From assembly GCA_009773565.1 (NCBI GenBank), contig WSXY01000013.1, forward strand, positions 1 through 42,829: a DNA stretch of 42,829 bases. The letters are read 5' to 3'. Source of the stretch: Actinomycetota bacterium. Its GTDB lineage: Bacteria; Actinomycetota; Coriobacteriia; Anaerosomatales; Anaerosomataceae. Shown in pieces: positions 19,416 to 38,903 of the stretch (positions within the stretch are counted from its first letter, which is position 1; the number at the start of each line of letters is the position of its first letter). A program made the translations under genes and the position numbers. Under the pieces are notes generated by a model. The model searched no databases and was not told the DNA's origin. It was given only the letters and a program-made list of their open reading frames with translations.

Positions 19416-19808
19416 CTACCGGTTCGCGAATGTGATCGTCACCTGGAGCACCGAAGCCGTGCTGACCCATATCAGGTACGGGATCAGCGCGAGCGACGCG
19501 ATTCTCGCATACGGCCAGAACGCGATCATGGCCCACACGATCGTCACGAGCACGAGCAGGATGTCGACGGTCGCAAGTGGCAGGTTCTGCAGCCCGAACT
19601 GGATCGGCGTGAAGGCGATGTTCGTGATCATGTTGATGATGATCGGCACAAGCAGCGCCTTCGGCATGTCTCCCTTGAAGACACGGAACGCGATGTAGCC
19701 GAAGACCACGAGGATGATCGGATACAGGACCGTCCAGATGGTACCGATGACACCCGGCGCAGGCGTCCACGACGGCTTCACGAGCGTGTCGTACCAGGTG
19801 AGGTTCAT
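19416..19808 (-). CDS. tspO: TspO/MBR-family membrane protein
   Basis: A 130-residue, five-helix membrane protein. Family landmarks are visible: WYDTLVKPSWTPAPGVIGTIWTVLYP at the start, NMITNIAFTPIQFG in place of the usual N.AWSP.FF, and LALIPYLIWVSTASVLQVTI at the end with the PYL.W motif. Members bind porphyrins or cholesterol-like ligands and influence stress responses. ATG 19808 has AGGAG 5 nt upstream. It diverges from the toxin-antitoxin-like pair and is read toward the ABC unit 77 bp away. Confidence 0.88.
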   Translation of the reverse strand: MNLTWYDTLVKPSWTPAPGVIGTIWTVLYPIILVVFGYIAFRVFKGDMPKALLVPIIINMITNIAFTPIQFGLQNLPLATVDILLVLVTIVWAMIAFWPYARIASLALIPYLIWVSTASVLQVTITFANR

Positions 19809-19881: not shown

Positions 19882-19902
19882 GGTATATAACTGTTATTAA
19901 CC
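19882..19902. promoter_or_regulatory. Near-palindrome, probable RHH operator
   Basis: A 21-bp AT-rich near-palindrome: arms GGTATATAAC (19882-19891) and GTTATTAACC (19893-19902) about a central T, with 8 of 10 base pairs symmetric. It ends 18 bp before the GTG start of a protein whose N-terminus is a ribbon-helix-helix domain, a placement typical of autoregulated toxin-antitoxin operators. The TATTAA/TATATA elements inside it may be the -10 region. Confidence 0.6.
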
Positions 19903-19920
19903 GTTTACAAAGGAGCCATC

Positions 19921-20436
19921 GTGCCAAGAACCGCCAGAGTGGTCGCCTTCTCAACCACACCGATCATGGCAGCTGAGATAGACCGCATGGCCGAGCTCGA
20001 GGGCCGTACGCGAAGCGAACTCATCCGTGAGGCGGTGCGGTCGTACAGCGCGATAATCAGCGGCTCCATTGCCCGAGAGCCCTCAGTGGCGTACACGACC
20101 CAACGAACAACACCGTCAGCCGGGTTCGACGTCGTGCGAAATGCGCGTACGCGAATCAGTCACGTGTGTCGGAAACACAAGGTGCGTCGGCTCTGGCTCT
20201 TCGGCTCGGCGATTCGTAGCGACTTCAATCCTGGACAGAGCGATTTCGACTTCCTCGTGGAATGGATGCCCGACGCGCCGAAGGGCCCATGGCTCTCGCA
20301 TCTACTCGACCTCGAGGAGGACCTGGCTACCGCGCTCGGCGCACCGGTCGACGTGGTTGAGTCGGGCTCGACGGCGAACCCGTATGTTCAAGAGTCGATC
20401 GAGTCCGACAAGGTGCGGATCTATGGGTCGGCGTGA
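19921..20436 (+). CDS. RHH-MntA fusion: DNA-binding nucleotidyltransferase antitoxin candidate
   Basis: A 171-residue protein with two parts. Residues 1-45 form a ribbon-helix-helix (CopG/Arc-like) domain (RVVAFSTTPIMAAEIDRMAELEGRTRSELIREAV). Residues 75-171 are a minimal nucleotidyltransferase of MntA type with LFGS (Gly95-Ser96), DFD (Asp108, Asp110) and PVDVVES (Asp144), so all three metal-binding acids are intact. Known MntA antitoxins AMPylate and neutralise HepT toxins; here a DNA-binding domain is attached, combining repression and modification in one chain. GTG 19921 has AAAGGAG 5 nt upstream. The stop overlaps the next gene by 14 bp. Confidence 0.85.
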   Translation: MPRTARVVAFSTTPIMAAEIDRMAELEGRTRSELIREAVRSYSAIISGSIAREPSVAYTTQRTTPSAGFDVVRNARTRISHVCRKHKVRRLWLFGSAIRSDFNPGQSDFDFLVEWMPDAPKGPWLSHLLDLEEDLATALGAPVDVVESGSTANPYVQESIESDKVRIYGSA

Positions 20437-20773
20437 TGCACGATCGCACTTGCTCGACATCGTGACCGCGTGCGAAAACGCTCTGGCTCACGTCGGAGAC
20501 ATGTCCGAGGCCGGGTACGTAGCCGATCGCAAGACCCGCTCGGCGGTCGAGCGGGAGCTGGAGGTCGGCGCGGAGGCGCTCGGACGCCTTCTTAGGGACC
20601 AGTCAAGTTTGCTCGACGAGTGGCAGACCGACGCTCGAGCCGTGGCTGGCTTCAGGAATCGGCTCGTCCACGAATACCAACACATCGATGACCGCGAGGT
20701 CTACCGAATTGTGCGCGAAGACGTGCCCGTGCTGCTGGTTGAGGCTGCTGAGACGCTGCGTCGCCTCAGCTGA
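20423..20773 (+). CDS. HepT-like HEPN-domain (DUF86) toxin candidate
   Basis: A 116-residue helical HEPN protein of the DUF86/HepT family. The catalytic RNase motif RX4HXY is complete: Arg78, His83 and Tyr85 in FRNRLVHEY. Known HepT proteins cleave RNA and are silenced when their partner MntA attaches AMP to the Tyr of this motif. The ATG at 20423 lies inside the upstream gene (14-bp overlap), so the pair is translationally coupled. The gene ends 3 bp before the stop of the convergent rlmKL gene. Confidence 0.88.
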   Translation: MGRRDARSHLLDIVTACENALAHVGDMSEAGYVADRKTRSAVERELEVGAEALGRLLRDQSSLLDEWQTDARAVAGFRNRLVHEYQHIDDREVYRIVREDVPVLLVEAAETLRRLS

Positions 20774-36961: not shown

Positions 36962-37855
36962 CTAACGCACCTGCGGCGTGCAATTGAGGACCCGCACCGA
37001 GAAGACAGCGTCGGAACACATCGCGGAGGACGGCGAAGTGCGCCGAACGTCATCTCGTGCCCGTGCGAGCCATGCCTTCCGGTCGACGTCGCGCGCAGCG
37101 GCCTGAAGCCGAAGTGCGGCCGTCCCGGCAAGCACGGCCGCGATCACTGCAACCGCATACGTGACCGCCGGAGCCACGGTACCGACAAGCAACACGACCG
37201 CCGAGAAGAACGCAACGCCACCCCAGGACCCAAACACTGTGCCGCGCAATAGACTATGCACCGCTTCGCTCCCTTCGTGCCGATGGGACGACGCCGCCAT
37301 GATCGCCGCCAGAACAGGCAACGGGGCGAGAAGGCCACTGACCTCGGCCCCTAAGAATTGAGCGCTAGTGGTCATCAACAACACCATTGAGGCCGCGATG
37401 ACCATACGCATCGCAAGGATTCGCTTACGCGGGACAGGTGTCACAGCTGTGGAATCCTCGGGAGCGTCAATTGCAAAAGCAAGCACGGCAAGCGCGAGCA
37501 AGACGAGAGCGATTACCCATCCAAAACCCAGGTGGACGAAGGAAAGTACGACCGCTGCCACCATGAACGCGACATAGGCGGCAATAAGCGATAGCCACCA
37601 CGAGCGTGTGCGCGAGAGAAGTGCGTAGCAGGCGCAGAACACGCCGGCTGCAACGAAGCCTAGCAGCGTCCCGTATGCCGCGTCAGCAGCGAAACGCGAG
37701 CCGTACTGCGCGAAGAGGAGTATCGATACGGGACCGGAGATAAGCGGCAAGCCCAACAGGAGGCCGCCGAGGGTGATGCCCCATCTTTGTACAGCAAACG
37801 TACAAGCCACCAGAAGCAGCGGGCTGATCAGAACTTTGGCGAGTACGAGTGTCAC
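36962..37855 (-). CDS. Multi-pass membrane protein of unknown function
   Basis: About 297 residues with eight or nine hydrophobic helices (VLISPLLLVACTFAV, ITLGGLLLGLPLISGPVSILLFA, AAYGTLLGFVAAGVFCACYALL, WWLSLIAAYVAFMVAAVVLSFV, WVIALVLLALAVLAFAI, and four more after residue 150) and a charged tail. I do not recognise a family with certainty. A Pro/Gly-containing second helix (GLPLISGP) recurs in small transporters. GTG 37855 has GGAG 5 nt upstream; the GTG at 37888 would add 11 residues without a good site. Divergent from the LysR gene, which may control it. Confidence 0.7.
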   Translation of the reverse strand: MTLVLAKVLISPLLLVACTFAVQRWGITLGGLLLGLPLISGPVSILLFAQYGSRFAADAAYGTLLGFVAAGVFCACYALLSRTRSWWLSLIAAYVAFMVAAVVLSFVHLGFGWVIALVLLALAVLAFAIDAPEDSTAVTPVPRKRILAMRMVIAASMVLLMTTSAQFLGAEVSGLLAPLPVLAAIMAASSHRHEGSEAVHSLLRGTVFGSWGGVAFFSAVVLLVGTVAPAVTYAVAVIAAVLAGTAALRLQAAARDVDRKAWLARARDDVRRTSPSSAMCSDAVFSVRVLNCTPQVR

Positions 37856-37976
37856 CGGAACTCCAAGACGTAAACTCAGAAACAACACCTCTTCATCTTG
37901 GGGCCTGATAAGAGTAGAGTCTATTTGTTCTTAGTTTCGGTAAGCATCGTATTTTGTTATCCTCATGGAGCAGACA

Positions 37977-38903
37977 ATGCTGAACACCACCCGGCTACGC
38001 ATTCTGCGTGAAGTCGCCGCACGTGGAACGATCATCGCGGCGTCAGAAGCGCTCTACCTCACGCCGCCGGCGGTATCCCATCAACTCAAGGTCCTCGAGC
38101 AAGAGATGGGCATCCCCCTTCTCGAGCGCACCGCCCGGTCGATCCGGCTCACGGACGCGGGACGACGCCTTGTGGAGCACGCCGAGACGATCCTGGCCGA
38201 ATGCGAAGAAGCGTACGCCGACGTCGTGTCCTTCTCCATCGAGATCTCCGGGCACATCAGACTCTCAACATTCCAGACGGCAGCTCAGAGCTTCGCGCTT
38301 CCGGCGGTGGCGGATATTCTCAAGAAGTACCCGCAACTCGATGTCGTCGTGAGCGAACTTGAGCCGTTGCGCGCCATCCCCGCACTAAAAGCAGGGCAGA
38401 TCGATATCGCCCTCTCACATGAATGGGACTTCGTCCCGCTGCCGAAGGACAGAGGCGTCGATCGCTATGACTTGCTCTTCGAGCCGATCGTCGTGGTGCT
38501 GCCCGTGGGCCATCCCCTCGCCTCGGGGCCGGTCCGGTTGAAGGATCTGTCGGAGGAGCGCTGGTGCGTCGCGCACGAAAGCGCGGCAAGCCGTCTGGCA
38601 GTCGACCGGGTCGCGCAGTCCGCGGGATTTGAACCGCGTATCATCCTCGAGAGCAACTACTTCCGCGCAATCGGGTCGGCGGTGGAGGCACGACTTGGCG
38701 TAGGCATCGCCCCGCTGATGACTGACCTCCGGGGGCTCGACATCGTTATTCAACCACTCATCGAGCCGACCATGGAACGCCGCATCTTCGCCGCGGTCCG
38801 GCGTGGCTCCGGTAGATCCCCCGCCATGCGAGCAGTACTTGATGCTCTCGAGACGGTCGCAGGTACGCTCGGCCCCGAGAGCCTTCCGGAGTTCCGACCC
38901 TGA
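37977..38903 (+). CDS. LysR-family transcriptional regulator
   Basis: A 308-residue regulator: N-terminal winged helix (LRILREVAARGTIIAASEALYLTPPAVSHQLKVLEQEMGIPLLERTARSIRLTDAGRRLV) and a C-terminal periplasmic-binding-like effector domain from about 88. ATG 37977 is chosen because GGAG lies 6 nt upstream, inside an earlier ATG-started leader at 37965. It diverges from the membrane protein, whose promoter it probably shares, and its stop abuts the hutI stop exactly (TGA|TCA). Either the membrane gene or the hut genes could be its target. Confidence 0.92.
   Translation: MLNTTRLRILREVAARGTIIAASEALYLTPPAVSHQLKVLEQEMGIPLLERTARSIRLTDAGRRLVEHAETILAECEEAYADVVSFSIEISGHIRLSTFQTAAQSFALPAVADILKKYPQLDVVVSELEPLRAIPALKAGQIDIALSHEWDFVPLPKDRGVDRYDLLFEPIVVVLPVGHPLASGPVRLKDLSEERWCVAHESAASRLAVDRVAQSAGFEPRIILESNYFRAIGSAVEARLGVGIAPLMTDLRGLDIVIQPLIEPTMERRIFAAVRRGSGRSPAMRAVLDALETVAGTLGPESLPEFRP

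Follow-up and report, generated by a model that had tools for sequence, protein, structure and literature searches.

A probable operator of tandem GTTnnnAAC boxes before a gene that fuses a ribbon-helix-helix domain to an MntA antitoxin

In the type VII pair SO_3165–SO_3166 of Shewanella oneidensis, the gene for a minimal nucleotidyltransferase (MNT) antitoxin, MntA, precedes and overlaps the gene for its HepT toxin, and HepT is reported to be neutralised through adenylylation by MntA (PMC7641770). According to published descriptions, MntA antitoxins do not have the kind of DNA-binding domain that ordinary type II antitoxins possess (PMC7641770, PMC4621449). In gel shifts Shewanella MntA (SO_3165), a protein in which no DNA-binding domain has been recognised, reportedly bound its own promoter. 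Promoter activity rose 1.6-fold in a double-deletion strain, and palindromes of dissimilar sequence lie near -10 and near -35 (PMC4621449). RelB of Escherichia coli is an antitoxin of the ribbon-helix-helix (RHH) type. Two RelB dimers bind neighbouring half-sites, on the same DNA face, of relO, which is bipartite and partly palindromic; its 12-bp half-sites are unspaced, and it contains four hexads [A/T]TGT[A/C]A (PMC2812701). RelB neutralises its toxin by binding, whereas MntA is thought to act by modification. A 2009 survey describes RHH fused to HEPN in paREP1 of Thermoproteales, with no MNT operon (PMC2701414), and the term RHH is absent from a 2013 survey (PMC3710099). Our literature search, in which coverage of subscription journals was thin, found no description of an MNT–RHH antitoxin.

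The window (the whole 42,829-nt stretch analysed, contig WSXY01000013.1 of an Actinomycetota bacterium) contains a module in which the MNT antitoxin does carry an RHH domain (Table 1). The last 14 bp of the antitoxin gene are shared with the HepT-like gene that follows. The order of the two genes, their overlap and the MNT fold are as in SO_3165–SO_3166; the differences are the fused RHH and a putative operator made of a tandem of equal boxes that is common to other RHH proteins. The antitoxin resembles paREP1 in joining RHH to one of the HEPN/MNT components, but paREP1 has it on HEPN and the window on the MNT antitoxin.

Domain searches and a fold match agree with the gene order and domains read from the sequence beforehand, RHH-MntA and then HepT. 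The RHH domain was matched by PF01402 at residues 16–42, with 31.8 bits against a cut-off of 20.5. In the MNT domain, which is of the polymerase-beta type, the spacing read from the sequence is GSx11DxD, and G95, S96, D108, D110 and the third acid, D144, are invariant in the three fusions (alignment A1). Because the MNT half keeps its catalytic residues, adenylylation of the toxin is likely to be a separate function. The toxin retains the HepT motif Rx4-6H with its target tyrosine, RNRLVHEY here and RNRLAHEY at one of the other fusion loci (L035). A structure predicted from a three-row alignment had a mean pLDDT of 65. Its MNT half best matched solved MntA (7bxo, E 4.4e-6), with 6m6u and 5yep also among the top folds; residues 1–12, which include the RHH strand, were below 50, and as a monomer model it cannot represent a dimer. 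The prediction is useful for the MNT half, not for the RHH. Scores against the NCBIfam equivalog models were 35.7 bits for MntA (NF047752) and 50.1 bits for HepT (NF047751), where the cut-off is 60 for each; by the NCBIfam rule the two proteins are divergent relatives, not equivalogs. The archaeal RHH cell-cycle regulator aCcr1 gave a weak match of 25.7 bits, against a cut-off of 60.

Table 1. Coordinates of the antitoxin–toxin module and of the candidate operator in the window
Feature	Position	Strand	Evidence or remark
Operator core (putative), 21-bp near-palindrome GGTATATAACTGTTATTAACC	19882..19902	.	8/10 pairs; conserved before 2/2 other fusion genes; top matrix match in window
Box 1, GTATATAAC, GTTnnnAAC type	19883..19891	+	
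Best -10-like hexamer, TATAAC, within box 1	19886-19891		putative -10; no sigma-70 match
Box 2, GTTATTAAC, 10 bp after box 1	19893..19901	+	
Candidate box 3, GTTTACAAA, another 10 bp on	19903..19911	+	overlaps first bases of ribosome-binding site
Ribosome-binding site, AAGGAG	19910..19915	+	sequence
Antitoxin gene RHH-MntA, 171 aa, N-terminal ribbon-helix-helix and minimal nucleotidyltransferase	19921..20436	+	
RHH domain, residues 2-43, strand TARVVAFST	19924..20049	+	PF01402 1.2e-7
MNT domain, residues 71-168, GS..DxD (G95, S96, D108, D110) and D144	20131..20424	+	PF01909, PADLOC PDC-S09
HepT-like toxin gene, 116 aa, RNRLVHEY motif	20423..20773	+	PF01934 1.9e-18
Divergent neighbour, TspO/MBR family, outside module	19416..19808	-	PF03073

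The sequence-only reading had proposed that an AT-rich near-palindrome in GC-rich DNA, GGTATATAACTGTTATTAACC, is the operator of the fused domain. The element is as described: 8 of its 10 pairs are symmetric, only 6 of its 21 bases are G or C in surroundings of about 60–63% G+C, and the GTG start at 19921 lies 18 bp past it. We rejected palindromy alone as evidence. Among the 42,809 21-mers of the window, 31 have at least eight symmetric pairs, and 29.5 are expected from base composition. Within the 60 bp before the RHH-MntA gene GGTATATAACTGTTATTAACC is the sole such 21-mer. It is also among the 10 very AT-rich clusters of the window (at most 7 G/C in 21). The largest of these clusters is at 37905–37970, and positions 37001–38000 show a strong A-over-T skew. 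GGTATATAACTGTTATTAACC rises above chance because it is conserved: the same element occurs at the same distance before both other full-length fusion genes that we found in the order.

Those two genes are L035 (in genome G132) and L036 (in genome G138), with 55% and 48–49% identity to the window fusion. Together with the window gene they are the only full-length fusions of this type that we found in the order, for which 69 genomes were covered. GGGTCATAACGGTTATAAACC lies 18 bp before the ATG of L035, and the perfect palindrome TGTTTATAACGGTTATAAACA lies 17 bp before the TTG of L036. Conservation of the palindrome in orthologous loci had been suggested as a check, and the palindrome is present in both; the element also turned out to be common to RHH relatives that lack MNT (see below). 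Neighbouring genes are TspO and ABC at the window, Ppx/GppA-like at L035 and serine-dehydratase-like at L036 (the latter two labelled by inspection). Since the neighbours differ among the three loci, conservation follows the module and not the locus. At L036 (G138:C288) the HepT frame is broken after the fusion gene: its start and its RNxLVHxY end are in different frames and the middle is missing, with the antitoxin and operator intact. This may be an assembly fault. With the toxin frame broken, the site there cannot be maintained by toxin control.

Wider searches for the fusion added none. When 396 genomes sampled evenly across the phylum were searched, a full-length fusion was found in 0 of 395 besides the window's own (E 1e-15), the other matches covering the MNT part only, and 396 genomes of the class held no full-length fusion beyond these three. 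Alignment A1 gave zero relatives in viral contigs, and the window protein had no match in plasmids at 1e-8. At one mismatch the pattern TATAACNGTTATNAAC, which was built from the three fusion sites themselves, matched only the three fusion genomes of the 69, at one place each, and its reversed control matched 3 genomes. The window's own genome has it at one place even with two mismatches.

A scan with a pattern from L036 only, allowing up to three mismatches, led beyond the fusions. It matched 7 of 69 genomes at one site each (reversed control, 1 of 69). Every site lies 12–21 bp before the start of a gene; three of these genes are the fusions and four are standalone RHH genes. The four, in G130, G088, G128 and G056, are perfect GTTTACAACNGTTGTAAAC sites before RHH genes of type MARTATTIGFS, three of which had already turned up as the window protein's closest RHH relatives, at 57–60% over about 43 residues. 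Overall, the closest standalone RHH relatives share 56–60% identity over about 43 residues; against the standalone RHH of L099, RHH residues 2–43 of the window protein show 57% identity.

With a single standalone RHH as query, 18 matches came up in 16 of the 69 genomes. We scored 15 of the 18, leaving out the window itself (L118), a gene whose N-terminus is missing (L117) and one whose contig ends 25 bp before the start (L104). All 15 evaluable genes are preceded by GTTnnnAAC-n-GTTnnnAAC with at least 10 of the 12 fixed positions, and 13 of them with at least 11; the three fusions score 11, 11 and 12. Dinucleotide shuffles of the same upstream regions reached a score of 10 in 0.37% and of 11 in 0.02%. 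By contrast, 13 upstream regions of MNT antitoxins with other DNA-binding domains scored at most 8. Seven positions are invariant in all 18 sites: G1, A8, C9, G11, T12, A18 and C19. The tandem-box pattern was drawn up after several of the scored sites were known, a circularity that the L036-only scan and a matrix built solely from standalone sites largely avoid. That matrix contains no fusion site and was made from 14 standalone sites, L107 having been dropped as identical in its site to L106. Over both strands of the window it ranked 19883–19901 first (17.6) and boxes 2 and 3 second (15.4), with 10.9 the best score elsewhere. The strict operator pattern also occurs in four viral contigs, with an RHH gene downstream in 0 of 4.

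L036 and the four GTTTACAACNGTTGTAAAC sites have a perfect overall inverted repeat. It is weak in several relatives, at 6 of 9 pairs (for example GTTGTAAACCGTCTGAAAC), and L113 has an exact 9-bp direct repeat. Judged from these sites, the conserved unit is a pair of 9-bp boxes at a 10-bp pitch, each partly symmetric, and the 21-bp palindrome is a special case of it. The boundaries 19882–19902 are slightly off relative to the conserved boxes. What stands of the original proposal is, by conservation, a probable operator of the fused RHH domain, and hence probable autoregulation; the palindrome gives way to tandem GTTnnnAAC boxes. The sequence-only reading also took autoregulation as a departure from classical HepT/MntA modules, and this does not hold, since Shewanella MntA is reported to bind and repress its own promoter (PMC4621449). 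Autoregulation as such is not new for HepT/MntA; it is the fused domain and the shared operator that differ.

In the window's own genome, the gene after the standalone RHH gene L109 encodes a PIN toxin (PF13470, TIGR00305), and the downstream reading frames of most other standalone RHH genes looked similar by eye. In these VapBC-like pairs of the same order, the operator is of the same type and its position is almost unchanged. In the matrix scan, sites from an RHH family with PIN partners predicted the site before an MNT gene. VapBC membership goes by a PIN-domain toxin partner and the partner here is HepT-like, so that only the RHH and the operator are common to the window module and the RHH-PIN pairs. 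The proteins differ in that the standalone antitoxins have a short C-terminal tail and the fusions the MNT domain. They differ also in the RHH strand, with V7 and A9 in 3 of 3 fusions and T7 and G9 in 15 of 15 standalone relatives. RHH strand residues face the DNA in RHH proteins generally. By analogy, our hypothesis is that these two residues set the specificities of the fusion and standalone proteins apart.

L109 (20334–20576) lies on a 33.8-kb contig of this genome, G000:C22, and its related RHH-PIN pair has the operator GTTGTAAACGGTTTGAAAC. The same contig also holds an XRE-MNT antitoxin, L002 (31516–31695). Cross-talk of these modules with the window module is possible.

We consider it very probable that GGTATATAACTGTTATTAACC serves the antitoxin's RHH half as its operator and that RHH-MntA represses its own mntA-hepT operon. 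A symmetric or repeated element before the antitoxin gene is conserved with the RHH in all three fusions and all 15 evaluable standalone relatives. In the mechanism that we propose, RHH-MntA would dimerise via its N-terminal ribbon-helix-helix. One dimer would sit on each 9-bp box, side by side on one DNA face, an arrangement for which RelB on relO is the precedent, here with 9-bp boxes at a 10-bp pitch in place of unspaced 12-bp half-sites. The dimers would cover the -10/+1 region at 19883–19901, near the ribbon-helix-helix gene's ribosome-binding site, and would thereby block the transcription start of the operon and repress it. Box 3 is perhaps a third operator box, which would extend the covered region to 19911. 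Boxes 2 and 3 score 11 of 12 fixed positions; both other fusion loci, L035 and L036, lack the box 3 unit. Separately, the MNT half would neutralise HepT by adenylylation.

No sigma-70 promoter was recognised before any of the three fusion genes, so the suggestion that the dimers cover the promoter rests on the -10-like TATAAC, which is found in box 1 of both the window and L036 and may serve as the -10. The same hexamer could be taken to mean that the element is a conserved core promoter, a -10 with its start region, AT-rich as promoters are and palindromic by accident; its place some 20–40 bp before the start codon would suit this too. We find that account very unlikely. In standalone relatives the boxes do not resemble a -10 (GTTGTAAACCGTCTGAAAC), and 7 of the 15 have a promoter of the form TTGAnn-N17/18-TAnnnT that ends 7–9 bp before the boxes. 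Conservation extends to both arms and both boxes, more than a -10 box requires, and the 13 other MNT antitoxin genes lack the element upstream. Where a promoter lies upstream, as in those 7 of 15, the palindrome would be at least partly transcribed, and in the window 7 bp separate its end from the ribosome-binding site; an RNA hairpin in the 5' leader, serving attenuation or translational control, might then be considered. Since several relatives keep the tandem boxes without the inverted repeat (6 of 9 pairs, or the exact direct repeat of L113), there is no common hairpin, and the seven letters invariant in 18 of 18 sites fit a DNA site that is read twice. A hairpin function is therefore extremely improbable.

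It is also conceivable that another regulator binds the site, such as the standalone RHH protein from the RHH-PIN pair on G000:C22, or that the site serves the divergent TspO gene. The genome does have this related protein with its related operator, and the boxes of the window and of L109 differ mainly in the inner bases. Even so we rate this as quite unlikely: the element accompanies the fusion gene into loci with different neighbours and occurs at a single place in the genome at up to two mismatches, and the strand residues, if they contact DNA as the analogy predicts, suggest a separate specificity for fusions and standalone proteins. Control by RHH-MntA itself is the reading that we adopt. 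As the RHH and the operator are common to the standalone antitoxins of PIN pairs, the most likely origin of the fusion is from a VapB-like RHH gene: an MNT domain would have been joined to the start of such a gene together with its promoter-operator, the direction of the swap presumably being this one. Going by the sequences, the RHH part and its site seem to be passed on as one unit.

Other MNT antitoxins of the order have other N-terminal domains: HTH_17 (L023), HTH_3/XRE (L033) and a second RHH type (L031). For the second RHH type we noted, by eye and with no statistics, a direct repeat of 10-bp pitch, ATACrCAyNNATACACAC, before the start in 6 of 6 located loci (of eight such loci, L120 and L130 were not located). 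These are L119, L121, L129, L131, L132 and L133; a TGCTA element comes next in most, and L119 and L121 are MNT fusions. Before HTH_17-MNT genes, TTTCCTrTAGrTTCCTAT or a form one letter off is present in 3 of 4 and one unit only in the fourth, again by eye and with no statistics. Upstream repeats like TTTCCTATAG-ATTCCTAT were seen at L071, L138, L139 and L140 (HTH_17-MNT) and at L148 and L149 (HTH_17 genes judged by the N-terminal HTH_17 alone); of this set of eight, L153 was not located and L154 was disregarded because of a wrong frame. XRE-type helix-turn-helix MNT antitoxins (L002, L026, L027, L028 and L033, of which L033 was tested) have AT-rich upstream regions with ATAAC/GTTAT-like pieces.

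Such pairings suggest that domain and operator move together. Slightly short of an even prospect, in our estimate, is the broader idea that repressor and operator form an exchangeable cassette and that MntA antitoxins of this order have repeatedly acquired such units, each with a 10-bp pitch: the RHH from RHH-PIN pairs, the second RHH with GATACACAC, and HTH_17 with TTTCCTATAG. If this is true, an enzymatic antitoxin would thereby have gained classical autoregulation, and RHH-PIN may be insulated from RHH-MntA in one genome by two residues of the strand together with the boxes' inner bases.

An MntA with a DNA-binding domain and an operator links type VII modules to ordinary RHH-controlled pairs. 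It amounts to a natural domain swap, in which the same RHH-operator pair serves two different toxin partners. The swap makes the determinants of RHH operator specificity testable, and likewise toxin-dependent repression in an antitoxin that modifies its toxin.
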